From Gongronella butleri (Eukaryota > Mucoromycota > Mucoromycetes > Mucorales > Cunninghamellaceae), in contig JAIWZP010000007.1 in NCBI GenBank assembly GCA_025201375.1, positions 744,001-808,000 on the forward strand: a stretch of DNA of 64,000 bases. Direction: 5' to 3'. The position numbers were made by a program, and so were the translations under genes. This document shows, in pieces, positions 12,464 through 46,742 of this stretch (position 1 is its first letter; every line of letters begins with the position of its first letter). Under the pieces are notes generated by a model. It worked only from the letters and a program-made list of their open reading frames with translations, did no database searches and was not told the origin of the DNA.

Positions 12464-15400
12464 ATGACCGACGCCCCCTTGTTGAACCGACCCCCTCCTC
12501 CAATGTCTGTGCACGCGCCATATGCAGATCTCATGGCAACAGACACCCCTGACGCTACGCCTCCGCGCGATCCCGGCTCGCCTGCGCATACTGCCACGGC
12601 ATCGCCCACAGCGGCCGTCTCAAAGCTTGACATGAGCGATATTTATGGAATGGCGACCCCGGTCTCCACGTCAAGCCCGCCAGCCGATGATCTCGCATCA
12701 AACCCTGCATCTGAGCCCCGTGACCTGACTGACACTTGCGCCCTTGTTGTCATTCGCATCTTGGGAGCAACCTTGAGCGAGGTTAAAAAAGAAGTCCTTG
12801 CACAAATGCTTCAATTCCAAGGAAAACCAGGTAAAAAAATGCCACAAAATGCGATTTCGTCGTCCCATCGACCTCACATTTACCCTGTTTTTGTTACTTC
12901 TTAGCGGGGTCGATTCCCGACATTCCAATTGACAGGATCGGCGCCGCATTGTACCAGATGAAGCAGAAAAAAGAGGATCAGCGCGGCGATGACGAATGGG
13001 ATCCAGCATGGGCAGCAGACACCTATACAAGTATGATAGCTTTTATGGCTGTCTACAAGGCACTAGTAACGGTGATCTTGACGGATCTCATGGCCGACGA
13101 TGTTACCGCCATTCCATCGCAACATCTCGTCGATGACTTTCTCCGCCTATTTGCCACGACTGACAATGACATTCTCAGCAGCGTCGACGACCCATTCACT
13201 TGGTTTCATGCGCAGCATCGCGCGCAGCTCGTCTACACGCTCACCATGCGCATTCAAAAGGAACATGGCATCGCGTTTCGCTCGCTTGCACTCATTGACA
13301 CCGTTTTGACACGTTTTTACACCGTGTACCTCTTACAATCCGTCGCACAGCAACATCAGCGGAACCACGGTCAATTCTACACGCCGCAGATCATGGTCCA
13401 GTTCATGTGGGCACGTTGTTTCCAAGACACTCTTGGAAATGAGCTATTACAACGCGTGTTCGACCCTTGCTTTGGAATTGGCGCATTTCTGTGCGCGTAC
13501 TTGACCCATTTGCTGCATGTTGTGCAGCAGCGCGACGATTTGTGGAATGACGGCCGCGCACTTCAATCGCTATTTGCTCAGCTGCCCAGCTATCTCTGGG
13601 GAGTCGAGATTGACCCTTTTGCGCATCGCCTCGGCAAACTAAACATCATTGTCCATCTGTTCCCTCTCTACCGACGTTGCGTGTCGCTCGGTGTCTCGTT
13701 TGATCAGTTTGTGATGGATCGGCTATGCCTGTTTCGTAATGACGCGCTACTTTTGGCGCTCCCGGATCCTCAATTGCACCCATGGGAGCACGCTCAGCTG
13801 CTAAAGCTCCGTGATCCCTCTCGTTTGCAATTTGATTATATTGTGACAAACCCGCCTTACATGACACGAAAAACTGGCTTCGTCGTCGTCCCGGACCGCA
13901 CCATCTACGACCCGCATATTCTCGGAAACAAGGGAAATCAGGCTTACACGTATTTTATGTGGCTCTGTCTCCAGCGATTGAACCCCATCTCGGGCCAACT
14001 ATGCTTCATCACACCGACTCAATGGGCATTGCTGCGATTTGCCGAACAAATCAGGTAAAAAAACAAAAAACAAAAAAAAAAGCATTTTTTTTTAAATTCA
14101 CGTTTTTTTATTTTTTTTTTTTTAAAAAAAAAGGAAATGGATGTGGGAGCATTGCCAGCTGCTGGAAGCGCACATCTTTCCCAATGCAAAAGTGTGGCCA
14201 GGTGTACAGACGGATTCGCTGGTTTTCCGCGTTCGCAAGCGCCAGGCGGACAAGCCATGTCCTCCCGCGCTTTTTTTACGCCATCGATCCGACACGATTC
14301 CACTGCCCGCCCTCCTGGAGACATTTGCGCGATTTGACCTGCAGCATGCGGAGCGTGACCCCGATGTCCTCTACAAGCTGACGCCAACAGACGATGTGAA
14401 GCAAATCACCAAGGTGTCGATGCAAGGCACGTTTGCTTCGCTGTTTCCGACGTCCATGGTGTCTGACGAGCTCGAGCGACTTACGAGCCACCTGCCGCGT
14501 CTATGCAACACGCCCGACGCGCCACTCTGCTGGAATCGAGGTCCAAACACCAACCCGGTTTATGCGCTCGTGGTCAGATCCGCTTGGGCACGCGCTCATT
14601 TTGGCGAAAAGGATTTTAATGCGTGGCTGCGCCCGGTTTTTTACTGGAACGGCAAGAAAATGGAGGTCGGGGCTGCTGATCAGCCTGTGGTGGATGCACC
14701 CGAGACGAGCGCGAACGAAGGTGACAAGGTGATGCGCTTTTGGCGCGGCCGCGATCCCGAGCGCATGGCCAAAAAAGAGTGCTCACCAGCTGAAGCCTAC
14801 GTTGCATGGCCATCTGCGTGCGCATACTCGATGATCTTGATTGATAAGGCGCGTGCCGCTCAATTGGACAAAACGTCGCCGCTGTACCAATACTTGCGCA
14901 GCGCTCGCATCCAGCTGCAGGCACAGCAAACCGACAAGGAGGTCGCGTGGTGTAGTTTCAGCAAATGCGGCGTTTCCCGCGTGAAACTCATTCATCCGAT
15001 TAATTTCGGCTATTTTAGCAAGTCCATGCCACGCCAGCGCTTTTTCTTGGACCGCCACGGCTGCTGTGTCACCAATCAGTGCATGTACCTTACCCTCAAC
15101 CCGGCAAACGACGCGCGACGTCAAGCAATCTTTCCATTTCAGCCCCAGGATGACAAACAAAAGGAGGACCCGGACCATCTCCAGGAGGATGCGCCCTATT
15201 TTTTTTACATTGGTCTGCTGAACTCCAGCGTCATGCACTATTTCACCCAAAAGCACTGCAAATACGACATTGCAGGCCGCATGCGCTTCTTTTCCGCCAA
15301 CATTGCCAAGATACCCTATGCGGAGCCGACGCCCGAGCAGGCACTTGATATGGTGCAACTTGTGCGCATGCAAATGGCCATACGAGAGTGCATCTATGAC

Positions 15401-15823
15401 GTGCTGACGCACATCCCAAGTGCCAAACAGCAGGTGTTCCTCGAAAAAGTGCGCTCGTACACTTGGGATCTTGCGCCGGGGATGATGCATCTCGTCAATG
15501 AGCACGTCACGCTATGCGACAACACGCCCACGGCCTATGGTGGCATCGAAATGACATTGCGACGCGGCGGTGGCACCCCTGCAGACCGACTCGTGCGCCT
15601 TCTGATCGCGCAATCGTTGCTTCAACGCGTCATTGAGCATCTTGTGTATGATCTCTATCGGCTGCCTTGGGATCTTCGCCTTGCTCTTGAAAATGAACAA
15701 AAGCTGACCTTGACCACTCAATGGCAAGCTTGTCACGATACCCTGCAGCAGCATTCGCCCATGCAATTAGCCGAAGCCATTTTGGACGGCTCTCTTGTCA
15801 TAGATTCCATCGTCATGAACTGA
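12464..15823 (+). CDS. Array copy 1: gamma-order adenine-N6 DNA methyltransferase with Type IIG/TaqI-like recognition domain
   Basis: Exons 12464-12830, 12905-14054 and 14134-15823; 1068 residues. Residues 1-122 are Pro/Ser/Thr/Ala-rich and look disordered, ending just after QMLQFQGKP at the first intron. A helical region follows (IPDIPIDRIGAALYQM; DPFTWFHAQHRAQLV). The methylase core has GQFYTP (F280), the SAM-binding motif DPCFGIGAFL (D309), LWGVEIDPFAHRLGKLN, RNDALLL, and the catalytic TNPPYMTR (N438-Y441). This motif order and the NPPY tetrapeptide are those of gamma-class DNA adenine-N6 methylases such as Eco57I/TaqI. The C-terminal half resembles Type IIG specificity domains: GLLNSSVMHYF (N869), AKIPYAEPT, IEHLVYDLYRLPWDLR. 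Expected reaction: SAM-dependent methylation of adenine at a specific DNA site. No nuclease motif is seen. Poly(A) signal at 15925. Confidence 0.85.
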
Positions 15824-15924
15824 ATACAATAACGGTGGTCACACTCTCTACAGCACATCGATTCCCTCCTCCACCAATGTACCATTGTAAAACTTATCAT
15901 ACAATAACTTTTTTTTTATCATGT

Positions 15925-15930
15925 AATAAA
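15925..15930 (+). terminator. Polyadenylation signal AATAAA, array copy 1
   Basis: Canonical hexamer about 100 bases after the copy 1 stop codon. Confidence 0.45.
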
Positions 15931-15939
15931 AAATTAATC

Positions 15940-16507
15940 ACGCTTTCATGCCTTCTTGTCAATTTTTCGACTTGTCGTCCTTTTAAATCCGAGAATCCAG
16001 ATGACCAAGGTCCTTGTCCAAAATCAACATATTAAAGCAATTGAGTTAAACACATGGTTTGATGCAATTACCTTCATGATGTAAGGATAAAAAAAAACAA
16101 TGGAAATTGACAACAAGAATGAAAAAAGAGCAGGGGAAAAAAGCACAACGCGAAAATGTTGAAAAGGGTAATTCTTTTGATAAAATGACGGTCAATGCCA
16201 TTTGATCACAGGTGAGAGGCACAGCCGACGCCAGACAAGGGAAGTTGAAGCATAGACACGTGACGAGGCTCAAGCTGCATTCGAGCACCATTTCAAATAT
16301 TTGTTGAAAGGGGGCAATGATTTGTCGCTCACGTATTTACCCCTTTTTTTCCGCGTCATTCGATCTCCGACGACGCGGACGCCAATTCATCGTTCTCGAT
16401 GTGTCAAAGAAGGATCAGCATAATGAAATAAGTTCAACTAAAGGCTAAAGGGCTGGATTCTTTATTATTTCTTTCTTTCTTGCTTGCTTGTTTTATTCTT
16501 TGCAAAC
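15940..16507. other. Spacer between array copies 1 and 2
   Basis: The longest spacer between copies 1-5. No gene seen. It ends in a TTTCTTTCTTTCTTGCTTGCTTG pyrimidine tract just before the copy 2 start, similar to the C/T-rich leaders of the other copies. Confidence 0.4.
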
Positions 16508-19500
16508 ATGAAATACTGTTCTTTATCAAGTTGCCCTGGCCCTGTTTTGCCTGAAGAAGAACCTCGCAAGCCTGGAGTGGATCTCATGGACGTTGATTCT
16601 GCAAAAGAAGATGTTTTTCCTGTTCCTTCTCTTTCTCATTTTGATCTCAATGAAACAAATGCCATTGCTCGTATGCTAGGGAGCATAATGGATCAAGTCA
16701 GACAAGATGTGTGGAAGGAGATGTTGCGTGCACAGGGAAAATCAGGTAAAAAAAAAAAAAGAAAAGCAATGCACTGTGACCGTTTTCTCACCTTTTTTTA
16801 TTGCAGAGGACATGATTCCCGACATTCTTTGGGCACGACCAGATACACTTTACATCAAATGATGCAGCAAGAGATGAACGAGAGCGACAGTGACGACATG
16901 GACCTGATGCAAGCTGCGGAAATGTATACAGACTTGGTTGCGTTCATGTCTGTTTTTCTCACTTGTTTCGAGATGATCCTGACCGATCTCATGTTGGTTG
17001 GTCTGAGCGCTGCCAATGTCGCACCATCGCCGGTGTCGCACCGCCCCATTATGGCCTATCTTGGCCTCTTTGCCGCCAATGACGATAGTATCCTCAGTTG
17101 CGCGGACGACACGTTTACTTGGTACCATTCAACACATCGAGCGCGAATTGACGAATTGATCACCAAAAAATTCAAGAAAAAGAAATGCCGTGTCACGTTC
17201 CAGTCTCTTGATTACGTTGACAATATTTTGACGCGATTTTACTCTGCGCATCTCTTGGACGACCTTGCTCGAAAGTACAAAAGAAGCCACGGCCAGTATT
17301 ACACGCCGCAATCCGTCGTCCAGTTCATGTGGGATCGCTGTTTCCAAGACATTGATGGTGGTGGCATCCTTTCTCAGCCAATGCGACGCGTTTTTGATCC
17401 ATCCATGGGAGTTGGTGCTTTCCTTTGCCAATATTTGGTTCGTCTGTATCACGCTGCGCTGCAAAATGATGAATTGTGGCACGACAGCTCAGCACTCAAG
17501 TCGTTGTTTATGCAATTGCCAAGCTGCCTGTGGGGAGTGGAGGTGGACTCTTTTGCCTATCGCCTCTGCAAACTCAATGTCATTTTACATCTGTTTCCAT
17601 TGTATTTGCGCTGTTTGACGCTTGGAGTCTCGTTCCAAGGGTTGAAGCTTGATCGATTGTGTCTGTTTTGCAATGATACGCTCGTTTTGGCGCTCCCAGG
17701 CGCGCAATTGCACGCGTGGGAGCACAAACAGCTAGTAAAGCTCTGCGACCCAGCGCAATTGCAATTTGACATGATCCTTGGCAATCCGCCCTATGTTCAC
17801 CGCCACCACGGCTTTGAAGCCAAGGCGAAAGGTTCCATCTACGACCTCAGCTTGCTTGGTTCTCGGAATGTCCAAGCGTACAATCACTTTTTGGTTTTTT
17901 GTCTCGAGCGTCTGCATCCAACTGGGCAGCTCTGTCTCATCACCCCGACACAATGGCTCTTGTATCGCTTTGGCTCGGCAATCAGGTAAAAAAAAAAAAA
18001 AAGAAAAGAAAGGAATTGAAACGCGACGCGACGCGATTTGCTGACTTTTTTTTTAGAGCCAAAATATGGGTCGCCTTTCAATTACTGGAGGGCTTTTTTT
18101 CAAGTCAAAGAAGATCTTTGCAAGAACAAAGACCGACTCAATCGTGTTTCGGGTGCGCCGGCGCCAAGAAGGCAAAGTGTGTCGACCGTTGATCTTTGTG
18201 GAGCACAAGTCCCCCGCGGCCAAATTGTCAGAAATCCTCAAAGTCTATGGCCGTCTCGCCCCAGATCACCACAATGCTTCCGACCTCGATATCAAATACA
18301 AGTTGACGTCCACGGAGGATGTGAATTTGATTTCCACCAAGCTTCACAGCTCATTTGTCCATCTTTTTCCAACAACATCTGCGCAAAATGACCTTGACGC
18401 CCTGACGCAACATTTGCCGCGGCTGTGTCAAGCACCAGACGCCCCTCTTTTGTGCAAGACAGGGCGGTCCATGTTTCCACTTTATGGCTTTGTGGTCCGC
18501 AATGCCTTTGCACTAGAATGTTTTGGCGAAAATGCTTGTAACAAGTTTTTAAAGCCTGCATTCTATTGGAGTTGGAAGATGAGCAAGGAAAAGAGCAAGG
18601 AGTCCGACTTTTGGGCGACGCGCGATTCACTGCGCATGGCAAAGCAAGAAAATACGCTCGCGGAGGCGTACGTTCCCTTTTTTTCGTCGTCAGGCACTCA
18701 ATAATCGGCAATTTGCATTGGAAAAAAGGAAGCCGCCGCATTGGACCCGTCTTCGCCGCTCTATCAATATCTGCAAGCGTTGCGCACCACGTTTCAGCCG
18801 CGAAATGGTGTTGTAAATGACATTATGTACAGCATTCCAAGCGATTGCGGTCAAAACCATCGTTTCAAGATTGTGCAACCAATAACTTTGGGCAGCTACA
18901 CCCCCGGGGCGCCGCGCCAGCGCTTCTTTTTGGATCGCGATAATCTGAGCATCACGCCACAAAGCTTGTATGTTACACTTGCTGATCCAAGCAAGGCAAA
19001 ACAAATGATGGGCTTCATTCCAAGCGGCAACGGCACATGCGATGACGACGAATTCAGCGCTCTCTGCGAAGAAGCGGCCTATTTGTTCTTCACCGGTCTG
19101 CTCAATTCCAGTCTTTTTCGCTTTTTCTCTTTGACGTGCTGCAGACACGATGTGGACGGCCATTTGCGCTTTTACAGTGGCAATGTCACCAGGCTGCCGT
19201 ATGCACCGCCGACGCCTATACACGCGCAAACAACGGCACTCTTGGTCCAAGTGCAAATCGATTTGCGCGATCGCATTTTTGCCATGATTTCAGATCTCCC
19301 CAAGGGCCAAAGCCGGCCAATTATTGATAAAGTACGCTCACTCACTTGGGATCTCGATCAAAGTGCCATTGACATTGTCAATCAGCACGTTGTGCTTGTC
19401 GACAATGAGGAGGCACCGCCCTGCAACAATGCCATGGACCTCGCGCTTGCTCAAGGTGGCGGCTTGGCTTCAGATCGACTCATCCGCCTCATGGTTACCC

Positions 19501-19712
19501 AGTCGCTGATGCAGCATGCCATTGAACACGTTGTCCACGATCTCTACAAGGTGCCTTGGGATCTGCGCGAAAGAATTGAGCGCGAACAAGATTTGACACT
19601 CAATGCACAATGGGAAAACTATCAAATTGCTCTTCAGCAGCAATCCCCCTTGCAACTTGCCGAGTCTATCCTCAATGGCTCCACTGTAGTGCAATCCATT
19701 GTCATTTCCTAG
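16508..19712 (+). pseudogene. Array copy 2: adenine-N6 methyltransferase paralogue with one stop and two frameshifts
   Basis: Exon homologues 16508-16745, 16807-17985 and 18057-19712. The whole unit is recognisable: acidic start with LMDVDSAKED, GQYYTPQSVVQFMWDRCFQD, DPSMGVGAFL, LWGVEVDSFAYRL, GNPPYVHR, then LLNSSLFRFF, TRLPYAPPT and VHDLYKVPWDLR. Three lesions stand out against the paralogues. Near 16829 one base is missing (ATTCTTTGGGC where IPDIPLG is expected). Around 18094-18100 a T7 run appears one T short. An in-frame TAA lies at 18702-18704 where the paralogues have Tyr. Both frameshifts sit just after an AG-AG tandem acceptor, and use of the distal AG restores the frame each time. 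In that case 686 residues (methylase core plus part of the recognition region) could still be made. ATG 16508 is preferred over upstream non-ATG extension. A sequencing error is possible for the homopolymer. Confidence 0.75.
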
Positions 19713-19725
19713 TTTTTGATTTAAA

Positions 19726-19731
19726 AATAAA
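19726..19731 (+). terminator. Polyadenylation signal AATAAA, array copy 2
   Basis: Canonical hexamer 14 bases after the terminal stop of copy 2. It is followed by an A run of about 30 bases (19757-19787). Confidence 0.45.
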
Positions 19732-19754
19732 AAATGAGCTGGCCACCAAGTTGG

Positions 19755-19788
<34 letters not shown>

Positions 19789-20008
19789 CGCCACTCCCCC
19801 CACTCCCCCCTTTTTTTTGGGAGGGGGAGGGGAGAACAAGGAGGCGGCCGACCTAGTTTAATTCTCTTTGTTCCTTCGCATTGACTAAATTGAGGATCGA
19901 CATCATCTTTTTAAAAGAGAGTAAAAGGCTATTTTTTTTTATTCCATTCCATTCCATTTTTTTTTCTTTTTTGATTCCTTTCGTTTGTTTTTCTTAAAGT
20001 CAGCGGTC

Positions 20009-21613
20009 ATGCTGCCTACACAGTACGCACATTGGGAAAGCATGGAAGTGGATGATTCTTCTAAATTGGAGCCCATTGATTGCACAGCTGCTCTGTCGGA
20101 CGTCCAAGCCATACAATGCGACAAAATGGTCAAACTCCTGGGATACGTTGTGAACAAGACCAAGGCAAAGGTTGCTCGCGAGCTGAGAAAAAGACAAGGC
20201 AAATCAGGTAACAAAATGCGGATTGTGGATATGCATTGTCGAGCGCAAACTCACGGTTTTGCTTTTTTTTTTTTTTATTGCAAACAGTTGGGATGGCTGT
20301 CGACGTGCCTTTTGCCAGCATTAAACCTACACTGAACCAGGCGAACAGCGATGCTGATCTTGGCGACGAGACGAGCATGGATCCCGATTGGGTGTCAAAC
20401 GCGTACACATGCATGGAAGGCTTTATGACTGTGTTTTTGGCGCTGGTTGAGGTGATTCTCAAGAACTTGGATGCAACCTCTAGCGGAATTGCAGCAAGCG
20501 ACACTACCATGATTTATTTGAGCCTCTTTAGCGGCAACGGAGACTTGGTCACTAGTCACGACGACATTTTTGGGTGGTATTATGCAGCACACGGCAGTGA
20601 CATTTGCGACACGCTCTTTGTGCTCTTTGAACGAGAGAAATTCGACATTATTGACTCTCTAGAGCATGTTGACACCATCTTCACGCGGTTCTACACGCAT
20701 TATCTTCTGCGACCCATTGCCAAGGATTATCAAAGATATCATGGACAATATTACACGCCGCGTAGTGTGGTTCAATTCATGTGGGATCGCTGTTTTCAAG
20801 ATGTGGACAAGGATGCTTTGCTCTCTGGTCCCCATCTTCCGCGTGTGTTCGATCCGTGCCTTGGAATTGGGACCTTTTTTTGCGAATACTTGAAAAAAAT
20901 GACGCATCTCATTCAGCAACGTGGCGATTTGTGGCACAATGGCCGCGCACTCCAGGCTCTGTTTCTCCAATTGCCCAGCAGCCTTTGGGGTGTCGAGGTG
21001 GATCCATTTGCCCATCGTCTCGGCGTTCTCAGCACCATTTTACATCTTTTCCCTTTGTTCAAGAGGTGTGTCGCGCTTGGGGCCTCATTTGACGGCGTGG
21101 TGCTCGACAAGCTCTGCATCTTTTGCAATGACTCGCTACTGCTGGAACTGCCCGACCCGCAATTGCATCCGTGGGAGCACGAACAGATCACCAGGCTGCG
21201 CGATCCCAATCTTTTGCAATTTGATTTCATCTTGACAAATCCGCCGTATCAAAACCGTTTGACGGGCAACGTAGTGGTCCCGGACATCGTCGTGTACGAT
21301 CCTGCCATGTTCAATAACCGCAAGGGAAGCCAGGCCTATATTTATTTCATGATTCTGTGTCTACAGCGATTGAAATTGAATTCCGGCCAAATTTGCTTGA
21401 TTACTCCAGCTCAATGGACAACACTTCGCCATTTTGACAATCACAGGTATACAAAAAAAAAAAAAAGTCGCGTCGCGACACGTTTTGGCGTTTTTGCTGA
21501 CTTTTTTTTCCCGTTTTTTCCTTTTATTACGAAGAATATGGCTGTGGCAGGAATTTCAATTACTGGAAGGCATCATGTTTCCTCATAAAAAAGTGTGGCC
21601 CAAGGTACGAAAA

Positions 21614-21654
<41 letters not shown>

Positions 21655-23328
21655 AAGATAAAAAAAAGATAAAAAAAAGATATAAAATTCATTCGATTTG
21701 TTCCATTCATGCATTTTATTGATATTTAGATCCAAACTGACTCGCTGATCATGCGTGCGCGCCGACGCCAAGTAGGGCAGCCAAGCCCGTCCGCGATTTT
21801 TATGGAACACCGACATCCCAAGGCGACATTAGCGGAATCACTCGATGCATTCAGGCGCGTTTTGCGCGATCGGCCCGTTGGACGCGATCCCGAGGTGAAA
21901 TTCAAGCTGACGCCGACAGACGACGTGAATCTCGTGTGTGGTCCGCCGTATTGTGGCTCGTTTGCGCTCTTTTACCCTGCGCCATCGGCCACCATGGCCA
22001 TGGAGGAATTGACGCGCGGAATGGAGCAATTGGGCGGCCAGCGTGATTCGCCGCTCAAATGGCGCAGTGGCCCAAACCCGGCGCCTCTCTATGCTCTCGT
22101 CGTTCGCACCGACTTTGCGCGCGCTCAATTTGGCGATGAAATTTGCAAAAAATGGCTGCGTCCGGTCTTTTATTGGAATTGGAAGAGTCTGAGCAAGCTG
22201 GAGCGTGAAATCAACAGCAAAAGAGGCGATGTCAAGGACAATGACAAGGACCGACACTTTTGGCTGTCTCGCGACCCAGACCGCATGCATACCAAGGAGT
22301 GGTCGCACGCCGAGGCTTATGTTCAGAAGCCTCCCCGCCCTGGCTTTGCTTACTCGATCATCATGGTGGAAAAAGACGACATCAAGCAATTGGACCACTC
22401 GTCACCTCTTTACAAGTACTTGCGCGAGGTCAAAGATCATTATTTCGGCGCCGACTCGTCCAGAGATGTTGCATGGTCGACCTATCGCTATAATGCGACA
22501 AATGAAGCGTACAAGCTCGTCCACCCCATGACTGTGGGCTATTCGCCAAACATCACGCCGCGTCAGCGCTTCTTTTTGGACCGGGATGGCCTTTGTTTGA
22601 CCTCAAAGTGTATGTACTACACAATCAATGACGATGTCATGGTGCGGCGCCGCATCTACAAGGTTCTTCCGGGCGACAGCGAGGCCGACAAGGAAGAATC
22701 CGCTTACCTGTTCTTCCTTGGGCTGCTCAATTCCAGCATTGTCCGTCATTTTACAAGCATCAATTGCCGCGTCAATGTTCTTGGACACATGCGCTTCTAT
22801 CCCGACACGCTTGGCAAGATCCCTTACCAACCACCGACGCGCGAACATGCCGCCGCCATGGTCCTCTTTGTCGATGTCTTGTGCAATTTGCGAAATCGCC
22901 TGTTCACCATGCTCAATTGCACTCCTGACGGCGGACCGCGCTCTCTTCTTGAAAAAATTCGTACGCTCACTTGGGATCTCGCGCAAGAGGAAATCTGGCT
23001 ACTCAACAAGCACGTCAAAATCGATGAACGCGCGCCATTCGCCAACGCAATCGATCGCGCCGTTTTCGAGGGTGATGTCGCGCCTGCCGTGCGATTTAAG
23101 CGTCTCTTGGTGGCCCAATCTCTCATGCAGCATGCTGTAGAGCACGTTGTCTACGACATGTACAAGGTGCCTTGGGATTTGCGCCTTGAACTTGAGGCGG
23201 AGCATGATTTGACACTCACCTCGCAATGGCAATCGTGCCAGGATCTTTTGCAGCTAAAGTCACCCGTGCAATTAGCCGAAGCCATTCTAAATGGCACTCT
23301 GGACGTGGAGTCCATTATCAATTTCTAG
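20009..23328 (+). CDS. Array copy 3: adenine-N6 DNA methyltransferase with recognition domain
   Basis: Exons 20009-20207, 20288-21446, 21535-21604 and 21730-23328; 1008 residues, intact. The acidic head is short (SMEVDDSSKLEP). Core motifs: HGQYYTPRSVVQFMWDRCFQD, DPCLGIGTFF (D255), LWGVEVDPFAHRLG, CNDSLLL, TNPPYQNR (N384-Y387). Recognition part: RFFLDRDGLCLT, LGLLNSSIVRHF, GKIPYQPPT, VEHVVYDMYKVPWDLR. Compared with copy 1 there is an extra phase-0 intron after VWPK, so the third exon is only 70 bases; that intron starts with an A run of more than 30. Phe replaces Leu in the last position of motif I. ATG 20009 is the first in frame; an internal ATG at 20042 opens MEVDDS and is a possible alternative. 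Same transcription direction as its neighbours, 297 bases after copy 2. Confidence 0.85.
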
Positions 23329-23336
23329 AACCAATC

Positions 23337-23342
23337 AATAAA
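23337..23342 (+). terminator. Polyadenylation signal AATAAA, array copy 3
   Basis: Canonical hexamer nine bases after the copy 3 stop codon. Confidence 0.5.
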
Positions 23343-23692
23343 TTCTTTGTCTATTTTCAAAAAAAAAAAAAGAATCAAATGAGCAAGGAGCAAGGTGAGG
23401 GTGTTTGGCCTTTCTGGGAGTGCTGTTTTCGACGATCGCTGCGCTCAAGGGCGATGTGACGATTTTCATGCGCATTGACACGCCCAATCTTTTTTTTTTT
23501 TTGTCGCTGGGATTTGTGCGCGACAGGCCACAGTTGCCGATCCTCACGTAATTAGGAATAAAACAACCAATTTCATTGTGCTTTTAAAGGAGGGCCAAGG
23601 ACAATAAATTTAAAAAAGAGTAAAAACAAGCTGACTTTTTAATTTTTCGCGCTTTTTCACTCTTTTTCATTCTTTTTTATTATTTTGGAAGG

Positions 23693-25575
23693 ATGATGGG
23701 TGCATCGCTCTCCTCTCAGCATTGTCAGCCAGCACCAGAGAATGTCTCCACCAAGGATGATGCTATGGAAATCGATGGTGTCGACGCCAAGCTCGCAAAT
23801 GACCTAATCTCCCCGCCTTTGCTTCCTTCCCCTGCTGCGGATGCGATGGACCTGGATCAATTGGATGCCGATGACGACCCAAGCGACTGTTTTTCGACAA
23901 GCTCGTCAGATGATGAAGACCAAGCGTACTTTGGCCGTTCTATCCAGGTTGGAGGCAAAATCTATGAGGTTGATACCGAGCCTCTCGACTCCAAGCATCC
24001 AAATGACCTGCTTTCACTGCCGACACTTCGTTCACGTTCCCCCATGGCAGCAATGGATGTGGATCCATTGCAAGTGGACGATGCAGCAAGCGATTCTGAC
24101 GGCAACTTGTCTGACAATGAAGATCGGGCGGAATTGGACGACGCTACGAATGATCTTCAAGAAGAGACGGTGCGAGCAATTACCGGAATCCTTGGTCAAG
24201 CTGTGAAAAGGATCACTGAGACTGCCAAGCGCCAGCTGCTTCAAAAACAAGGAAAATCACGTAAGAATTGACATGATTGCATCCATCTGTCGTGATCAAT
24301 GGCTCAATTGCTTTTTTTTTCTCTCTATCTCTATTTTTCTTTCTTTCTTTAGGAAACGACATCCCAGATATCCCTCTGGGCACTGTTACCAAGACTCTAA
24401 AGGAGATGGGCGACCTCAACCAGATACGGCATGAGAACGCCTTGGACGCCAAGTGGACTTCTGATACCTACCTTCGACTTGTCGCGTTCATGTCTGTGAT
24501 TCTTGGATTTTTGGAGGTCGTCATGTCGGAGTTGCTGCTAGCTGAAAGCGGGCAGGGTGATGTCAGAGAACCTCGCAAGGAAATTGACGCGTATCTACGT
24601 CTGTTTGCGCACAATGGCGACGTTATCAGCCGCAGCAAGGACGACTTCTCCTGGTACCATCGCAAAAACCGCAGCAACATTGTCGATTCGCTCAGAAAAA
24701 AGCTTAAAAGACGCCAAATCGCCATCGATGACATTGCCATTTTGGATCCGGTGCTGACGCGATCGTACACGCGCCATCTTTTGGTGCCAATTGCAAAGGA
24801 CCATCAACGCACTCATGGCCAGTTTTACACGCCTCAATCTGTGGTGAAATTTATGTGGGGACGCTGTTTCAAGGGCGCCACAAGTGACAGCAATATGCTC
24901 TCGGAGCCATTGCCGCGTGTTTTGGACCCTTGCATGGTAAGCCACGCAATTAAACGCGAGAATCATCCTCTGATTTTTTTTATTCATGTCTGCAGGGAAT
25001 TGGCTCTTTTTTAAGCGCGTATTTGGTTCACCTGATTGGTCTTGCGCGAGAAAACAAAGATTTCTGGAACAATGGCCCGCGTTTGCAATCATTCTTTATG
25101 CAACTGCCCAGCTCAATCTGGGGGATTGAAATTGATCCTTTTGCGTTCCGTCTTGGCAAGCACCTCATCATTGCGTACATGTTTCCAATTTATCTGCGGT
25201 GCATCACGCTTGGCGCCTCTTTTCACGGCAAAAAGCTCGATCGTCTTTGTCTGCTCTGCAACAACACGGTGCTTTTGACGCTGCCTGAAAACAAAAAACC
25301 GCACAAATGGGAGTATCAACAACTCATCAAGCTCCGTGACCCCAATTTGTTGACGTTTGACTTTGTGGTGACCAATCCTCCCTATCTGACGCGAGCCACT
25401 GGGAATTTCTCTAAATTCGAAGAAGAATTGGACCCCTCCAAGGACTTGGGACCCGCCATTCAAGCATACATCTTTTTTTTCTGGTTCTCGCTTATTCGTC
25501 TGCATCCAGAGAGAGGTCAGGCGTGTTTTATCGCCCCGAGCCACTGGACCTCGCTTGGCTTTGGCAAGCAATTCA

Positions 25576-25632
<57 letters not shown>

Positions 25633-27360
25633 ACGGCGCGACATTTAAGGCTAATTTTTCCTTTTTTTCTTAAAAAAAACAGACGCTGGGTTTGGGAGCA
25701 TTTCCAATTGCTGGAAGGCGTGGTGATCCCTGAAAAGCGTGTCTGGCCAACGGTCGCAATGGATTCGCTTATTGTACGCTTCCGCAAGCGTCAAGAAGGT
25801 GTTGCATGTCCGCCCTTTTTACTCGCCAGGCATCAAAATCGTATGGCCTTGTTGCCTGAGCTCTTGGACACCTATGCGCAAATTAAGCCCAACCATGACA
25901 ACCTTGGCGACCTGCCTCTGAATTTTACACTGACGCCGACCGACGACCCTCATTTGATCGCCAAACCGGAGTTGGGCGACTCGTACACGTCTAGGCTCCC
26001 AATGTCGTCGCACGCGAACCAAATTTTGCAATTGACCAGCCACCTTCCCAAGCTGACGCGTTCACCCGATGCGCCGCTTTTGTACCGCCGTGGCCCGTCT
26101 ACAAGTCCAATCTATGGCAATGTGGTGCGCACTGAGTGGGCACGTTCGTACTTTGGTGAAAAGGACTTTTTGAAGTACCTTCGCCCCATTTTTTACTGGA
26201 ATTGGAAGTCCCTGAAGGGTCCCACGGAGAGGCGGTGCACGAAGCGATCCGCGCTTGTCTATCGCAAAGGCATTGTGCCCGACGAATTGTACATGAACAG
26301 TGAAAGACTCTTTTGGCTGGACTACGACCCAGAGCGCCTCAAGTACAAGGAGACCAATCTTGCTGAGGCGTACACGAGATGGGCGCCACACAATGAATAC
26401 TCGGTGATCTTGGTGAACAGGCTGCAAGCACGCAAATTAAATTCAAAGTCGCGTCTCTACAAGTACCTGAAAGACGCGCGAGAAAAGCTCATTCCGCGCG
26501 TCAAGCGCAACATTGCCTGGCACAACACCCTCTACAACGGCTCCAACCATAAAAACAAGATCATTGCCCCCATCACCACCGCGTATTTTCCAAATTCGAC
26601 GCCGCGCCCTCGATTTTTCTTGGACCACGAGGGCATGGCCGTGTCGGCGCAATGCATGTACTTTTTGCTCAACCCGGACGCCAAATGCCAGCAACTTTTC
26701 CAAGCCATTGACACGGGAAAAAGCGCAGAGGAGGCGGCATACCTCTTTTTCCTTGGCGTGCTCAATTCCAACCTCAATGGCTTCTTCACAGCCACGTTTT
26801 GCCGCTTTGACTTTGCGGGCCGAATGCGATTCTACGAGCCGATGCTTGGTCAAATTCCCTATGCCGAGCCAACACCAGAGCACGCGCTTGCCATGGTTCT
26901 CCTTGTGGACGTTCAAATTTGCCTCCGCGAGCGCCTTTTTGCCCTTTTCAAGCGCCTGCCCGACAAGACGCATACCCCTCTACGTATCCAGATGCGTCGG
27001 TGCATGTGGAATGTCGATGACGATACAATTACCAGCATTGACACGCACATTCAGCTAAAAGATGAAATGCCGGCCACCAATGCCCTGGACCATGCCCTCA
27101 TCCAAGGCAGCGCCAAGGCTTCGACACGCATTATTCGCTTATTGATCGCGCAGTCGCTGATGCAGCACGCAATTGAACAAGTTACCTATGATTTGTACAA
27201 TATTTCTTGGGATTTGCGAATTGCGCTTGAAACAGAGCAAAAATTGACATTAACCAAGCAATGGGAACCGTGGCAGGAGAGGCTGCATCAAACGTCGCCC
27301 GTGCACCTTGTCGAGAGCATTCTCAAAGGCACCCTCACCGTCGATTTAGCCAACTTGTGA
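23693..27360 (+). CDS. Array copy 4: adenine-N6 DNA methyltransferase with recognition domain
   Basis: Exons 23693-24260, 24353-24936, 24996-25576 and 25683-27360; 1136 residues, intact. The N-terminal tail is long and acidic, with three related short motifs (AMEIDGVDA, AMDLDQLDADDD, AMDVDPLQVDD) and Ser/Asp runs that look like casein-kinase-2 targets. Core: GQFYTPQSVVKFMWGRCF, DPCM/GIGSFL (D381), IWGIEIDPFAFRLG, CNNTVLL, TNPPYLTR (N511-Y514). A phase-0 intron (24937-24995) splits the SAM-binding motif between DPCM and GIG; only copies 4 and 5 have it. The intron before the recognition half has about 52 consecutive A just inside the donor. Recognition part: LGVLNSNLNGFF, GQIPYAEPT, IEQVTYDLYNISWDLR. 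AATAAA at 27400. Confidence 0.85.
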
Positions 27361-27399
27361 TCTTTTTTCCTGTTTTTCTTTTTTTTTTTTTTTTTTTAC

Positions 27400-27405
27400 A
27401 ATAAA
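27400..27405 (+). terminator. Polyadenylation signal AATAAA, array copy 4
   Basis: Canonical hexamer 40 bases after the copy 4 stop, directly behind a long T run. Confidence 0.5.
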
Positions 27406-27795
27406 TCAACCTCTTTTTTCCATTTTTTTCACTCTCGGAGATGATGCAGAGTGTGAACAGCCCATTGCCAAGCACGACAATTAAAAAAAAAAGGGATCCA
27501 CATTGGCTCAGGGCAAGTCAAAAATTCGACAATTGTTAGTTTTGAACAGAGAACCACCAAATACAAACCTGTGTTGATGTTTTTTTTTACGCGAAAAAAG
27601 CAAGCGACGCTCTCATTTTTATTGTCCTTTGGATTTTCATGGCGCGTCGAATTGGGAAAAAAAATAAAAAAAGCGTCAATTTCATTGTCTTTGCAAAGCA
27701 ACAAATGATCGACGTATAAAAAGTAAAAGTTCACTTTTTTTTTCTCCCTTCTTTTTTTTCTTGTAACCTCACTTTTGCTTTTTTTTTCACGAGCT
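27406..27795. other. Spacer between array copies 4 and 5
   Basis: Holds no gene. A C/T-rich stretch (TTTTTTTTCTCCCTTCTTTTTTTTC, about 27737-27790) ends close to the copy 5 ATG and is the likely core promoter or leader. Confidence 0.4.
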
Positions 27796-30051
27796 ATGAC
27801 CGGTGCTTTGCCATCCAATTGCTCTTCTCCAACCCCAATGGATATTTCTGGCTCTTTTCCCAAGGACAATTTGCTGGATGCTGGTGTGGAGCCCATGGAC
27901 ATTGACCCGCTTGAGTCCACTGACGCGAATTCCACAACAACCGGCAGTGCGTCGCCGCCAATGCCATCCGCAATCCTTGGACCGCTTCAAACTGTTGGTG
28001 ATGATGATATCGTGGTCTTTGAACAAGAAACAATCTTCTCTGATGGCGAGGATCGTGGCTCAGGTGCTGATGACGGAGCTTGCGGTGCCGATGAACCCGG
28101 AATTGATGACGGAGACGCAGTGGCTGGCGATGATGAAATTGAGGTGGTTGCCAATGATGATGGCGACGCGACGGACGACACAACAAAGCTTCAAGGTCGC
28201 GATGAAAAGATCGCCAATGGCCTGATCAGCATCTTGAACGCCTTTTTAAAGGACCTGAAAAACAATGTTTTGAAGGACTTGCTGAAAAAACAGAAGAAAA
28301 AAGGTAAAAATCCAAAAACGACACTTTTGGGACTTTCCGTGTATTGATTGTCTTTTTTTTTTTATGAAAAATAGCCAAGGCCATTCCCGACATCCCTATG
28401 GACAAAATCAGCAATACTTTGTACCGCATGCAGCCCAAGAAGCTGGCCGATTCGGACGTTTTGGATCCTGTGTGGGCAGCCGACTGTTATTGTACAATGA
28501 TAGCGTTCATGGCTCTCTATAAAGCATTTTTGGAGGTGTTCCTGACGGATCTCGTGGCACAAGGGCCTGAAGATGACCCTGCTACTGCTGATATTGCTGC
28601 TGATGACGAAAACGTGCTTTTTGGTGCTGATGATCCTGGTGCTGATGCTGACGACGAGCGTGTTGCTGATGATGAAGATGACCTTGTTGCTGGTGATGAC
28701 GATGAGCTTGTTGCTGGTGATGATTCTGACGCTGAAGATGACGATGAGACTGTTTCTGGTGATGAACCTGGTGCAGATGATGCTGCTGGTGATGCAAATG
28801 CTGAGGCCACGGCGTCGTCGCCATCGCGCAAGACTGGTCCCTTGGTCAACGACGTCTTGCATCATTCTTCCAGAAATCAACGGGTTTCGTGCGAGACTGA
28901 TCCCTTGGTGAACGATTTTTTGCATCTTTTTGCCAAAAATCGACATGTTCTGAGTGACCCTGACGACCCGTTCACTTGGTTTTACGCCAAGCGCAGGGCC
29001 AGCATTGTCGCGCGGCTCTCTGGGCGCATTCGCAGAAAGTTTGGCACTGGATTTGCTTCTGTCAAGTATGCAGATACAATTTTGACGCGCTTTTACTCGG
29101 GCACGCTGCTGAAAGCTGTCGCATGGAGACATCAGAAGGATCTTGGCCAGTTTTACACGCCGCAATGCGTGGTGGACTTTATGTGGTGGCGCTGCTTTCG
29201 TGAGGACGGCAATGCTGATTTGCTCGCTCAAGATTTGCCCTTTGTTCTCGATCCTTGCATGGTAAGAAAACGCGATTGGACTCGAGGATCATCATCTAAT
29301 TGCTTTTTTTTTTCTGCGCGATAGGGAAATGGCTCATTTCTTTGCAGCTATCTCGTGCATTTGCTCGAATTTGTCCAAAAACGCGATGACTTGTGGAACA
29401 ATGGCGCCGCACTATGCTCCTTGTTTGCACGTTTGCCTGGCCACCTCTGGGGCGTGGAGCTGGACCCCTTTATCCATCGTCTTGGCAAGCTGAACGTGAT
29501 TTTGCATCTTTTTCCGTTTTTCAAAAAATGCGTGTCGCTTGGTGTTGCCATGGACCAAATCGAGGTGGAGCGACTGTGCTTACTTTGCAATGACACGTTA
29601 CTTTTGACACCGCCCGACGAGGAATTGCATCCATGGGAGCACCAGCAAGTGCTCAAGCTTCGCGATCCTGCGCTCCTCCAATTTGACTACATCGTGACCA
29701 ATCCACCCTACATGACGCGCCGGTCAGGCTTTTTCAAGGATCCCGACACAGAGCTCTACAATATGAACGAAATTGGTCAAGGATGTCCACAAATCTATGT
29801 CTATTTTATTTGGTTTGCTCTGAAGCGGCTGAATCAAGCGACTGGCCTGCTTTGTTTTATTACGCCTATTCAATGGTTGAGGACTTCTTGTGGCACAAGG
29901 CTCAGGTATAGAAAAAAAATCAGAAAGCGTGTGCTTGAGTCATTTCTCACTCTTTTTTTTTTTTTGCTGTTTTGCATTACAGACAACTCATTTGGAAAGA
30001 TTTTGTGATTTCTGATGGCTTTATGTTCGCGACACGCAAAATTTGGCCACA

Positions 30052-30096
<45 letters not shown>

Positions 30097-31815
30097 ACAC
30101 GGTCGAATTACGTTTGCTCACTTTTTTTTTCTATATCATAGATTTGCACCGACTCTCTTATATTTACGACGCGCAAACGTCAACAAGGCCAGCTGACTCC
30201 GCCCACCATCTTTGTGCAGGACAAGCATGCCAACAGCACAAAACCAAAGGAGTCCCTCAAAAAGTACTATTCCATTGTCAAGAACAATTTTCTCAATGCC
30301 CACGAGCTTGATTTGGTGTGCAAAGTGACACCAACGGACAACTTGAACTTGCTCTCCGAGTCCTGGACACAAGGCACGCTTGCTTGCCTCTTTCCCTCAT
30401 GTGCTAGTGCCGACCGACTGGACCAATTGACGCACAATCTCCCACGCCTCATTAACGGTCCTGATTCGCCTCTCTCCTGGTCGTCTGGGGCCACAATGAC
30501 ACCGATCTACGGCAGTATGGTCAGAACAGAATGGGCGCGCAGCCATTTCAAGCCCAAAGAGTTTGAAAAATTATTCACGCCGGCTTTTTACTGGAGTTGG
30601 AAGAAGATTGTCCCTGAATTCTGCGACAAGGCGCAGCAACTAGTACGCCGCCGGTCGCTTGGTCCTGTGGCTGCATCGTCATCCGACTCGAGTGATGCGG
30701 TGAACATCAGCTTGGACAAGGTGCATCTCGACAAGGATATGCTCTTTTGGAACAAGCGTGATCCTGCTCGTCTGACCAGGAAGCAGTGGTCCAATGCCGA
30801 GTCTTATGTTCCACTGCCGCCCAAGCCTGGCCAGGAGTTCTCTGCCCTCACGATTTGCAGAAAAGACATTCGAAGGCTGGGTCGCAAATCGCGCGTTTTT
30901 CAATACGTAAAAGATATGCGCGATGAGCTCCGGCCGCAGTCAAAGTGCCCGGTTTTGACGCCCAGCTTTTTCAACTGTGGAAGCAAGCTACGTTTCAAGA
31001 TTGTCCATCCCACCAGCCTTGGAGGTTATTTTATCAACTCATCGCCGCGCCCTCGCTTCTTTTTGGACGTGGATGGCCTGGCCGTCAGCAACCAGTGCTT
31101 TTACTTTACGTTGACCAAGAATGAAACGGTGCGCAAGCAGATCTTTGACCTGACGATGGAGGACAATGGCGATGACGCCGAGGAAACTGCGTATTTGTTC
31201 TTTTTGGGCCTTTGCAACTCGTCGGTCATGCGATTCTTGACCTATCAGCACTGCCGCTATGATGTGAATTGCCGCTTGCGATTCCACCAACGCAACCTGG
31301 CAAGAATCCCGTACGCGCCTCCGACAGCCATTCATGTTCAAGTTACGGCCAGATTGGTAGACATGCAGATGGAACTACGCAAACGCATCTTTGGCATGGT
31401 GAACACGCTCCCAGATGACACCACGTACGAGATTCTCAAAAAAGTTCGATTGCTCCGTTGGGATGTGGACGAACATCATGCCAATGTCGTCAACAAGCAC
31501 GTCAAAGTCGATGTTGACGCGCCCGTGGACACTGCTGTGGGCTTTGCTCTTTCCCAAGGCGGCGGAACGGCTGCTGAACGCCTTGTTCGTCTCTTGTCCG
31601 CTCAGTCGCTCATTCAGCACGCGATCGATCATGTGTTTTACGACCTTTACAAGGTGTCTGGGGAGCTTGCACTCAAGCTGGAAAGAGAGCAGCATATCCC
31701 ACTTATTGATCTGTGGATGACGTGGCAAGTGCGACTCCATGAATGCTCGCCGTTGCATCTGGCTATTGCCATCCTGGACTGCACGATGCCCGTGAATGCT
31801 CCCGGTGTCAATTAA
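27796..31815 (+). CDS. Array copy 5: adenine-N6 DNA methyltransferase with recognition domain and large acidic insert
   Basis: Exons 27796-28303, 28375-29261, 29325-29905, 29983-30052 and 30142-31815; 1239 residues, the longest copy and the only one with all four intron sites. The tail contains PMDISGS and PMDIDPLESTD. A roughly 100-residue Asp/Glu/Ala-rich insert (28563-28840) built from imperfect VAGDD/ADDE units interrupts the helical region. Core: GQFYTPQCVVDFMWWRCF, DPCM/GNGSFL (D462; Asn in place of Ile), LWGVELDPFIHRLG, CNDTLLL, TNPPYMTR (N591-Y594). Recognition part: LGLCNSSVMRFL, ARIPYAPPT, IDHVFYDLYKVSGEL. The last helix departs from the PWDLR of its sisters. ATG 27796 is the first in frame. 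Confidence 0.85.
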
Positions 31816-31869
31816 TCGCTTCCTTGAAAGCCCACAGGGCAATTTGCATTTAACAACACTGACTCTATG

Positions 31870-31875
31870 AATAAA
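31870..31875 (+). terminator. Polyadenylation signal AATAAA, array copy 5
   Basis: Canonical hexamer 55 bases after the copy 5 stop codon. Confidence 0.5.
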
Positions 31876-32661
31876 AATATGCAAACAACTGCAATGAAAA
31901 TAAAAAAAACGCTTTTTCGGCTCTGCCAAGGTTGCCCAAGTGGATAAGAAACAATGAACGAGTGCTTCTCTTTTCATTGGTAATTTTTTTCGTGATTTAT
32001 TCTTTAAGATTAATTAATGGTGAACAAGCGTTGAAATGGAGTAAATTGTGAATTTCTTGTTTGACCTGCGCAATGGCATAGTCGACCTCTGGCTTTTACT
32101 TTTTCTTCAGAAAAAAGGGAGCCAAAATTACATATTTAATCAAGCGGTCTTGCACCTAGCCTTGCTATGATGTCGCATTCACATTGCGGCGCTCGGATCA
32201 CTATTTAGAAAAAAAAAAAGTGGAAGGAGCTGCTTTGTACACGGCGCGTCAAATTTGGTGTTACAGTAGCACAAACGAGGAAAATTCATGCACGGTTTTG
32301 TGCGCCCCCAATTCAGTGCTTTTGTGTCGTCTCCCTTCTTTTTTTTTTCTTTTTTTTTTGTTCAAACAGTCAATATTTACGTTTAACTTTGCCTTGATCA
32401 TTCTCGCCATTTTTTTTTTTCGAGACAAGTCATGATTCCTAGAATGGCGAGCGATAATTGACCATTTCTACAAAAAAATCATGATTTTCATCGTTTCGCC
32501 ATGAATGAAAGAAAAACCACCAAAAAAAGGGAGGAAAAGGAGAAATGTTCGTATTCATTCTCATTGTTCCCCAAGACCCAGCATTAATTGGAGATCGGCA
32601 AACAATATAAATCGGAGATTGATGATGCTTTGGTTTTTTTTCCTGCTATTTTTTTTTATCC
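31876..32661. other. Spacer between array copies 5 and 6
   Basis: About 0.8 kb, the widest gap in the array. No gene or recognition/nuclease component is visible. Several T runs and a short inverted ATCATGATT-like motif (about 32430-32490) are present. Confidence 0.4.
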
Positions 32662-35600
32662 ATGAAGCGTCCGCTTTTGCTGACACAGTCTTTTACGCCA
32701 ATGTTCAGCACGTTTCATCATTATGATCCCATGGGCCCGGATGCTCCAGACTCTACACCAAACAGTTCCACTTTCTTGGAGGCAAACTCAGAGGTTTTGC
32801 CGGTTGCTAGCACTTCAATAGCCACCAATGCGCATGTTCTGCCGCCAACACCCATCGTTGCCCATGAATTTGGTGGTTTTCAGGACACGCATACAAGATC
32901 GGAGTACGTGGGACTTGTCATGGACGCCCTGAGACTCACGATGCAGACCGTCAAGAGCGAAGTCCATCAATCGATGCAAACCATTCAAATCAAGCAAGGT
33001 AATGAACCCACCGTGCGCAGATCCGACCGGGATGCTCACCTTGCTTGTTCCTTACTCCCATAGCTGGGGGGCTTCCCGCAGTGCTCATTGAAGCAATCAA
33101 GCCCTGTTTGTATCAAGTGAACAGAAAGCATAGCGATGCCGCGGTAAATTCGACCTTTATTGTCAATGCATACGCGTGGATGGTCGCGTTCATGTCCGTG
33201 TATCAGTCGCTGGCAGAGGTGATCTTCTGTGACCTGCTGTTTCAGGGATCACTATCGGATCAACGAGACGTCGAGGAGATGCACCAGGCATTCGACGCGT
33301 ATTTGCGCATTTTTGCTCCCGAAGACGCACTGTTCAGCCGCAGTGACGATCCTTTTACTTGGTTCCACGAAGCAAACCGCACGCACATTGTCCGCCTGCT
33401 TGTTCAAGACCTGCGCAACCAGCTAGAAATCGACTTTAACTCGTTCGAGCTTGTTGACACGATTTTGACGCAATTCTACTCGAGGCTACTTCTTGAGGAG
33501 CTTGCTGCTTGCCACCAGAAATCCTATGGTCAATTCTACACGCCCGACTCTGTGACGCGCTTTATGTGGGACCGGTGTTTTCAAGACGAAGAGGACACAA
33601 TACCTGCTGGACGACGTGTTCTTGACCCTTGCATGGGCATTGGATCGTTTCTGTGCACTTTTTTGCGACGCTTGGTTGGTCAGGCTCAGCAGCACTTGTG
33701 GAACGACGGCCCAGCTCTTCAATCGCTGCTCTCGGAATTGCCAAGCAACATCTGGGGCATTGACATTGATCCGTTTGCCTATCGCCTTGCCAAATTCAAC
33801 ATCCTTGTACACTTGACGCCGCTGTACCGCCGTTGCATGCAACTGGGCATTCAATTCGAGGAGAGTTCGCTTGACCGTCTCTGTCTGTTTCGCAATGACA
33901 CGCTCCGATTGCCTTTGCCCGACCCAGAAACGGATCCATGGGAGTTTGCCCAGATTCACAAGCTGCGCAACCCAGACCGCTTGACGTTTGACTACATTGT
34001 GATCAATCCGCCATACATGACGCGAAAATCGAACAGCCAGCCCGATTGGCGCCTACTTGCCAACGCTGCCGATTGCAAAGCGACGCAAGGCTACATCTCG
34101 TTTCTTCGGTTCTGTTACCCTCGGCTTAACCCGACCATAGGCCAATTGGCCTTTATTGTACCCCAGCAATGGCTCGTGCTTGCCTCAAACACGAATTTCA
34201 GGTAAAAAAAAAAAAAAAAAAAAAAGGCATTGATTGCTCATTTTGATTTTTTTTTATCTTTTTAGGGCCCGTCTGTGGACCGCGTGTGAGATTATTGAAA
34301 TGTTCCTCTTTCCCAAGCCCAAGGTGTGGCAAAATGTTGCGACGGATTCGCTGATTGTTCGCATGCGGCTGCGTCAGCCTGGCAAAGTTTGTCCTCCCGC
34401 TATGGTTTTAGACCACAAAAATGCCAGCAATACGCCGCTGGAGACAATGCTCTGGAATTACAGCCGTTTTGACGTGCATCGCGCGTCTTTGACGCCTGAG
34501 GTGCTTTTCAAGCTGACGCCCGTGGACAATGTGCTTCTCCTCGACTTTGGCTATGAAGATCACTCGTACGAATTTATGCTGCCCTGGTCGAATGTCACGG
34601 GTGAACTTGACGCTCTCACTCAGCATTTGCCGCGGCTGTGCCTGACCGAGGACGCGCCGCTCACATGGAATCGCGGCCCATCCATTTCGCCCGCGTATGG
34701 TCACATTGTGCGCGATTGTTGGGCACGCGCACAATTTAGCAATGAACATTATTCGCGGTTTGTGCGTCCGGCATTTTATTGGAATGGCAAAAAGATGGAG
34801 ATGTACAGAGGCAATTCGCGGCGTATGATGGCGCGCAATTCGGCGATTGCGGCGCTTTGCAGCGATGATGACGACGACAACAACAACCACAAGAAAGAAT
34901 TGATACTTGGCAAGGAGCGGGTCTTTTGGCAGGCGCGCGATCCGGAGCGAATGGCCGAAAAGGAGTCGTTTTGCGAGGCGTATTTGCGTCGCAAGCCCAA
35001 TTCCGAGTACGCTGTGATCATGATTGACAAGGATTCCGCGGAGGAGCAGCTGGACCCGAATTGCGCACTGGCCAAGTACTTGGACGATGTGTACTCGCAG
35101 CTCATGTATGCCGACAAGCAGTACATGTCGTCGCAGACCTTTGACAGGTGTGGTCACGATGTTGGGCCCAAATTGGTGCACCCGTCCATCTGTCAATTCA
35201 GCAAATCATGGCCGCGTCAGCGCTTCTTTTTGGACTGGGATAACCTTGCCTTGACCACGCAATGCATATACTTGACGCTTAGCGATGCCGACCGCGACCG
35301 CCGCCACGCCACCTTTGCGCCCCTGGCACACAATGCAAGCGACATGGCCGCCGTCGACAAGGTTGCCTTTTTGTATTTTCTTGGTTTGGTCAACTCAAGC
35401 TTGTTTCAGCACTTTTGCCTTCGGTTTTGCCGGTTTAATGGCAACAGCACCATGCATATGTTCAAGACCAGCATGAGCAAGGTCCCGTACGCGCCACCCA
35501 CGCGTGAGCACGCGCATGCCATGGTGCAGCTCGTGCAAATGCATATGGCGCTGCGCGAGCGCATTTACGCTGTGATTGAGCGCGTCCCTGTGAAGCCTGG

Positions 35601-35973
35601 GCGCGTCATTCTTGGCAAGATGCGGTTGCATACGTGGGACGTGGACAACAACACCAGATTCGACATCCAATTAGCCATTCCTTTTGTGGACGACGCGTTT
35701 GCACCGGACAATGCACTTGATGGTGCGCTTATGCAAGGCGGAGGCACCGCTGACGAGCGCATTGTGCGGCTTTTAAAGGCGCAGTCGCTCACGCAGCACG
35801 CGATCGAGCATATCATCTACGACCTGTACCATATCCCGTGGCAAGCACGCCTTATTCTGGAAAAAGATCTGGATCAAGGACTCTCTGCCCAATGGGCGGA
35901 TTGGCAGGACCAGCTACAACAGACGTCGCCTTTGCACATGGTGGAGAGCATTTTAAACGGCACTTTTGAATGA
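32662..35973 (+). CDS. Array copy 6: adenine-N6 DNA methyltransferase with recognition domain
   Basis: Exons 32662-32998, 33064-34201 and 34266-35973; 1060 residues, intact. The tail is Ser/Thr/Pro-rich and less acidic than in copies 4-5; methionines at 32701 and 32725 are alternative starts. Core: YGQFYTPDSVTRFMWDRCFQD, DPCMGIGSFL (D300), IWGIDIDPFAYRLAKFN, RNDTLRL, INPPYMTR (N427-Y430). Recognition part: RFFLDWDNLALT, LGLVNSSLFQHF, SKVPYAPPT, IEHIIYDLYHIPWQAR. The variable stretch after FYWNGKKMEM carries an Asp run then an Asn run (DDDDDNNNH), a tandem-codon expansion. Intron pattern equals copy 1 (two introns). It is the last copy; nothing related follows it. AATAAA at 35984. Confidence 0.85.
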
Positions 35974-46373: not shown

Positions 46374-46742
46374 GGCGAAAGAAAAAAAAAGATGCAAATT
46401 GGGGATAAAATGGAGAGCGAGAGGGGGGGCAATTGAAAAAAAGGGACAGACGAGCGAGGGAATGTGCGGATTGGTGGGCGACGAAGGGGGGAAAGAGAGC
46501 CAAAAAGGAAGACTGATTAAAGGAAAGATCAAAAAAAAGAGAGGGAAGTGGAGGCGAAAAGGGTAAAGCCCAAAGGAAGGAAAGGAAAGAGTCGCGAAAA
46601 AAAAAAAAAAAGACGAAATGAAGGGAAGACGAGGATGGCCCACGAAAGCGAAAAAAAAGGGGAGGGGAAGAAAAAAAAAAAAAAGACAAAAGTGTGATGA
46701 AAAGAAAAGAGAAATGAAAAAAAAAGATCAAGCAAATCCCTC

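Follow-up and report, generated by a model that had tools for sequence, protein, structure and literature searches.

The mould Gongronella butleri (Mucorales) carries a tandem array of duplicated genes assigned to the fungal MetB family of gamma-class adenine-N6 DNA methyltransferases. The best reading of this array is a set of DNA methyltransferases, without detected nuclease, that would act on several new target sequences. On balance we favour the view that each intact copy has its own non-palindromic target, other than AAAACA, in which one adenine on one strand is predicted to be methylated.

The array and its gene models

The window analysed is a stretch of 64,000 nucleotides (G000:C78:744001-808000) from a genome of 33 Mb in 110 contigs. 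Positions 12464-35973 of its plus strand are filled by six head-to-tail, intron-bearing genes, c1 to c6. Gene models were made by hand using GT-AG introns at positions common to the copies. Such introns are present in all intact array genes; a first-pass annotation of this DNA had proposed intron acquisition. The deposited proteins P0001 and P0005 are identical throughout to the c3 and c6 models, and P0004 is the c5 model minus 14 N-terminal residues.

Coordinates of the array genes and of other features of the window
Feature	Positions	Strand	Exons	Description
c1	12464..15823	+	12464-12830, 12905-14054, 14134-15823	intact, 1068 aa
c2	16508..19712	+		pseudogene, same family as c1
c3	20009..23328	+	20009-20207, 20288-21446, 21535-21604, 21730-23328	intact, 1008 aa
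c4	23693..27360	+	23693-24260, 24353-24936, 24996-25576, 25683-27360	intact, 1136 aa
c5	27796..31815	+	27796-28303, 28375-29261, 29325-29905, 29983-30052, 30142-31815	intact, 1239 aa
c6	32662..35973	+	32662-32998, 33064-34201, 34266-35973	intact, 1060 aa
Two overlapping ORFs	44167-46643	-		one with a homeodomain, one with a TRF2/HOY1 PH-like domain
U11 snRNA	50830-50998			minor spliceosome; 65.8 bits vs gathering score 39

Genome-wide, eight places scored above the curated cut-off of the Eco57I profile PF07669, two on contig C21 and six in the array. The six head-to-tail bacterial-style adenine-N6 methyltransferase genes described earlier are indeed present, but only five of them (c1, c3, c4, c5 and c6; 1008-1239 aa) are open, c2 being a pseudogene. 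If c2 is read with the conserved splice sites, its frame is lost where exon 2 begins and again where exon 3 begins, and a TAA stands in frame at 18702; exon 2 would stay open with an acceptor two bases further on. NPPY and motif I (DPCxGxG) are kept in all six intact copies of the genome (the five open array genes and the intact one on C21). In the motif series attributed to each gene the exact letters vary, with YYTP in c3, WGIDIDPFA in c6 and DPSMGVGAF in c2.

Two further features of the copies were observed. Introns 14055-14133, 17986-18056, 25577-25682 and 34202-34265, which occupy one shared position, start with GTAAAA and have poly-A directly at the donor (more than 40 A in c4). The short motif (A/S/P)M(D/E)(V/I/L)D recurs in disordered N-terminal regions, with three occurrences in c4 and others in c3, c5 and the C21 copy, and is rare in the other aligned MetB rows. 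The models show disorder at residues 1-22 in c3 and at 1-75 in c6.

Contig C21 bears one intact family copy (P0002, hereafter C21a) and one decayed copy. Because the latter (C21:425823-428564, locus L035) matches window positions 17017-18265 at 86.5% and 18854-20440 at 82.4%, it must derive from the c2-c3 junction, from which a piece was lost before the copy decayed. The array has therefore given off copies to another contig. When the genome was searched for a canonical MetB with c3 or the Cunninghamella protein P0003 as query, none was found elsewhere and only C78 and C21 matched, in an assembly that may be incomplete. The contig looks fungal, since the window contains a U11 snRNA and a homeodomain gene (the two overlapping ORFs are perhaps a single gene) and since the c3, c5, c6 and C21-copy proteins are deposited under Gongronella butleri. 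A chimaeric contig, a concern raised in the first-pass annotation, is ruled out by the introns, the U11 snRNA, the homeodomain gene and the second locus on C21.

Family membership and origin

Homologues were searched with residues 250-1068 of c1. From 7992 scored candidates this query gave at least 92 matches: 4 from Gongronella, 77 other named proteins and 11 other unnamed ones. All 77 named non-Gongronella matches listed come from early-diverging fungi, which rules out a recent private transfer from a bacterium. The taxa among the named matches listed are Mucorales, Umbelopsis, Jimgerdemannia, Glomeromycotina, Mortierellomycota, Calcarisporiella and Basidiobolus; Absidia, Lichtheimia and Hesseltinella are absent from the 92 listed. 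As to a bacterial donor, a scan of genome contigs returned three weak loci with 21-36% identity, and a profile search outside fungi returned only unnamed proteins (E 4e-7 to 5e-4).

Whole-protein Pfam scans were run on P0001, P0002, P0004 and P0005, and all four exceeded the cut-offs of PF02384 (N6_Mtase) and Eco57I; c1 and c4 are covered by PF07669 at their loci. In the trees, which contain fungal rows only and no bacterial ones, the array proteins group with Mucor and Phycomyces proteins inside the fungal MetB clade, this clade itself being taken from the available text of PMC11258239. In a tree of 23 rows, the six intact Gongronella copies form one clade (100/100) whose sister is Cunninghamella MetB (100/99). 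The pseudogene c2 was excluded from this tree and from all counts. Branch lengths of the copies range from 0.31 to 1.06, c1 being the shortest (slowest-evolving) and c6 the longest, and the branching order within the Gongronella clade is less certain.

Membership of the array genes in the fungal MetB family is well supported by their domains and by the tree, and the tandem expansion arose in the Gongronella lineage. Of the horizontal gain followed by tandem diversification put forward at first, the duplication stands and the private bacterial acquisition does not. According to PMC11258239, as far as its text is available, MetB of Mucor lusitanicus writes asymmetric 6mA at AAA6mACA, and deletion of metB lowers 6mA by 70-75%, chiefly asymmetric 6mA, with the AAA6mACA motif gone. 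The same source reports the MetB recognition domain as MmeI-like, and its authors infer an ancient transfer of MetB from bacteria.

Changes in the recognition loops

Four motifs of the recognition domain are near-invariant in the family. Among the 88 non-Gongronella homologues listed, RGPNxxP is present in 87, QPRxRFF in 80, TNQC in 80 and QQGR in 79, and several of the homologues missing a motif are truncated proteins. For QQGR, the nine exceptions comprise two that read PQGR, six whose sequence or alignment does not reach as far as the segment, and P0007, which spans it but lacks QQGR. By contrast, QQGR and QPRxRFF are changed in all six intact Gongronella copies, and RGPNxxP and TNQC are each changed in five. 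Only c1 keeps both of the latter (as RGPNTNP and TNQC), with MPR in place of QPR and DIAGR in place of DQQGR; none of the four motifs is found in c4 or in any of P0001, P0002, P0004 and P0005. The Gongronella copies do not match an AAA6mACA subtype by these motifs, whose near-invariance is an observation of the present analysis with no published definition.

Three glutamines (c3 numbering) are lost throughout. In c1, c3, c4, c5, c6 and C21a, Q752 is replaced by M, T, T, S, W and M, Q826 by I, V, F, V, G and T, and Q827 by A, L, A, N, N and N, respectively. Among 177 conserved columns, only I389, E469 and P470 are also changed in all six copies. Moreover, the set of four loops differs between any two intact copies. 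The recognition domain looks like the new part of the Gongronella MetB copies.

To quantify this, we scored the columns in which 95% or more of 38 other MetB proteins, drawn from the 88 listed, agree. Fifteen rows that took no part in defining the columns (14 distant Mortierellomycota selected from a longer list, and the lone protein P0061) served as control. In Gongronella, deviating cells amounted to 56/120 in the loops, 90/432 in the rest of the recognition domain and 90/444 in the methyltransferase; the control values were 1/294, 112/1064 and 128/1109. The loops are therefore the most constant part of the recognition domain in the controls and the least constant in Gongronella. A column permutation gave p 0.0004, for loop windows that were chosen after the conservation data had been seen. 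Of 3000 sets of random windows of the same length, 51 reached the Gongronella value, including 9 with the control equally low; for loops 3 and 4 alone, 240 of 3000 reached it and 180 of 3000 did so with an equally low control. The contrast with the control rows is a stronger argument than the window statistics.

Several alignments bear on the role of these loops. In MmeI, base pairs 4-6 are read by R810/A774, T752/L805 and E806/R808 (PMC4833311, available text). Local hhalign paired residues 731-819 of the Mucor circinelloides homologue P0029 with 646-726 of the MmeI-type protein L040 (probability 86%, P 5e-6), and in this block TNQC falls at most two residues from MmeI N773/A774. The Cys-to-Pro spacing is 19 in both blocks and places DQQGRMR on MmeI 805-811, a placement obtained by counting along the interval between these two conserved residues; the hhalign path itself has a gap at DQQGR and would put it some five residues away. 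Ungapped extension of a very weak CamA piece (0.1 bits) puts DQQGRMRF on S514-Y521, and S514, I517 and Y521 are contact residues of CamA (PMC8187626, available text). A BseCI piece (11.5 bits) aligns AGRRRY at the DQQGRMRF position. RGPNTNP and QPRxRFF were positioned by eye and spacing. Finally, models of c3 and c6 show a fold match to DNA-bound CamA across the methyltransferase and the recognition domain.

On these approximate alignments to MmeI and CamA, the four loops likely read DNA bases. As an adenine is read by a glutamine in CamA (PMC8187626, available text), a changed target would be in keeping with the disappearance of three glutamines from members of a family whose site is A-rich, and we infer altered specificity for the Gongronella copies.

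Alternatives, proposed explanation and known systems

Where dS was finite (six of ten pairs for each domain, dS being otherwise saturated), the methyltransferase had dN/dS values of 0.11-0.26 and the recognition domain values of 0.24-0.44, with dN below dS in all these pairs. This pattern is compatible with constraint, without being a proof of function, and the copies evolve fast overall. It bears on the possibility that the extra copies are relaxed paralogues drifting to loss, with loops changed through disuse and not for new sites. The broken c2 and second C21 copy, the long branches (0.31-1.06) and the higher dN/dS of the recognition domain go in this direction. Such drift is nonetheless unlikely, as six copies are open with NPPY and motif I intact, dN is lower than dS wherever dS is finite, and drift alone is not expected to pick the loops that are most constant elsewhere.

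The loops might also read no bases at all, the copies keeping an AAAACA-like specificity and differing in how they are regulated or in the proteins they contact. In favour of this, the loops are mapped only approximately at the level of residues, and the greatest variation among copies lies in the N-termini; yet loops near-invariant across early-diverging fungi are changed in all six copies, and the motif order is that of the CamA/MmeI-like recognition domain, which makes a retained target quite improbable. NPPY is found in glutamine methyltransferases too, and P0029 has a weak HemK match far under cut-off. Methylation of RNA or protein is nevertheless highly implausible, given that most DNA 6mA is lost on metB deletion in Mucor (PMC11258239, available text) and that the C-terminal half resembles DNA-bound recognition domains.

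Copy-specific targets are the best-supported explanation. If the changed motifs read bases, as do the MmeI and CamA loops with which they roughly align, the targets would have changed with them; and since every intact copy is altered at likely DNA-reading stretches, marking of the fungus's own DNA at several sequences is predicted. An ancestral MetB with one specificity would have duplicated in the Gongronella lineage and lost the three otherwise conserved glutamines (Q752, Q826 and Q827) that would read an A-rich site. The copies would then have diverged into several writers. At asymmetric sites one of the two daughter duplexes comes out of replication without the mark, so that each mark would need fresh writing. 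More tentatively, the array may write 6mA words of several kinds in one eukaryotic nucleus, as a eukaryotic counterpart of bacterial Type IIL specificity diversification; self-marking, control of elements or regulation of particular genes might be its use.

If true, a eukaryote would multiply sequence-specific adenine marks as bacteria do. Gongronella would then be a natural specificity-swap experiment, with likely DNA-reading loops changed in every copy, each differently, and the way in which MetB reads DNA would emerge once each motif is assigned to its copy. In the literature searched, no paper joins Gongronella with 6mA or with a DNA methyltransferase, and Gongronella MetB was not found in the available text of PMC11258239 or PMC13297926.

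Among known systems, the MT-A70 enzyme Mta1 has the same product (6mA in fungal DNA), but it belongs to a separate family (PF05063) and acts on symmetric ApT. Pfam scans of four array-family proteins showed no PF05063 match; the MT-A70 matches of the genome lie on contigs C50, C26 and C67. The looser likeness to BREX PglX/BrxX noted earlier was not borne out, three proteins scoring 16.6-37.3 bits vs an NCBIfam BREX MTaseX cut-off of 400-500. Nor was a Type IIL/IIG restriction-modification enzyme with a fused N-terminal nuclease, as Pfam scans of four proteins at E up to 0.1 detected no nuclease family. MmeI-type (Type IIL) enzymes perform restriction-modification, whereas the Gongronella proteins have no detected nuclease family and an MmeI_Mtase match under cut-off. 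CamA of Clostridioides difficile, an orphan adenine methyltransferase of CAAAAA, shares about 16% identity with the array proteins; the aligned range holds no N-terminal helical domain, and CamA is a single bacterial enzyme. Of the same family is the MetB that Lax et al. (2024, PMC11258239) describe from Mucor lusitanicus, with the same N6_Mtase/Eco57I core, recognition domain and fungal clade; c6 and the Mucor circinelloides homologue P0029 share 33% identity. One metB is described in the available text on Mucor lusitanicus, whereas Gongronella has a tandem array in which every intact copy departs from the near-invariant recognition motifs.
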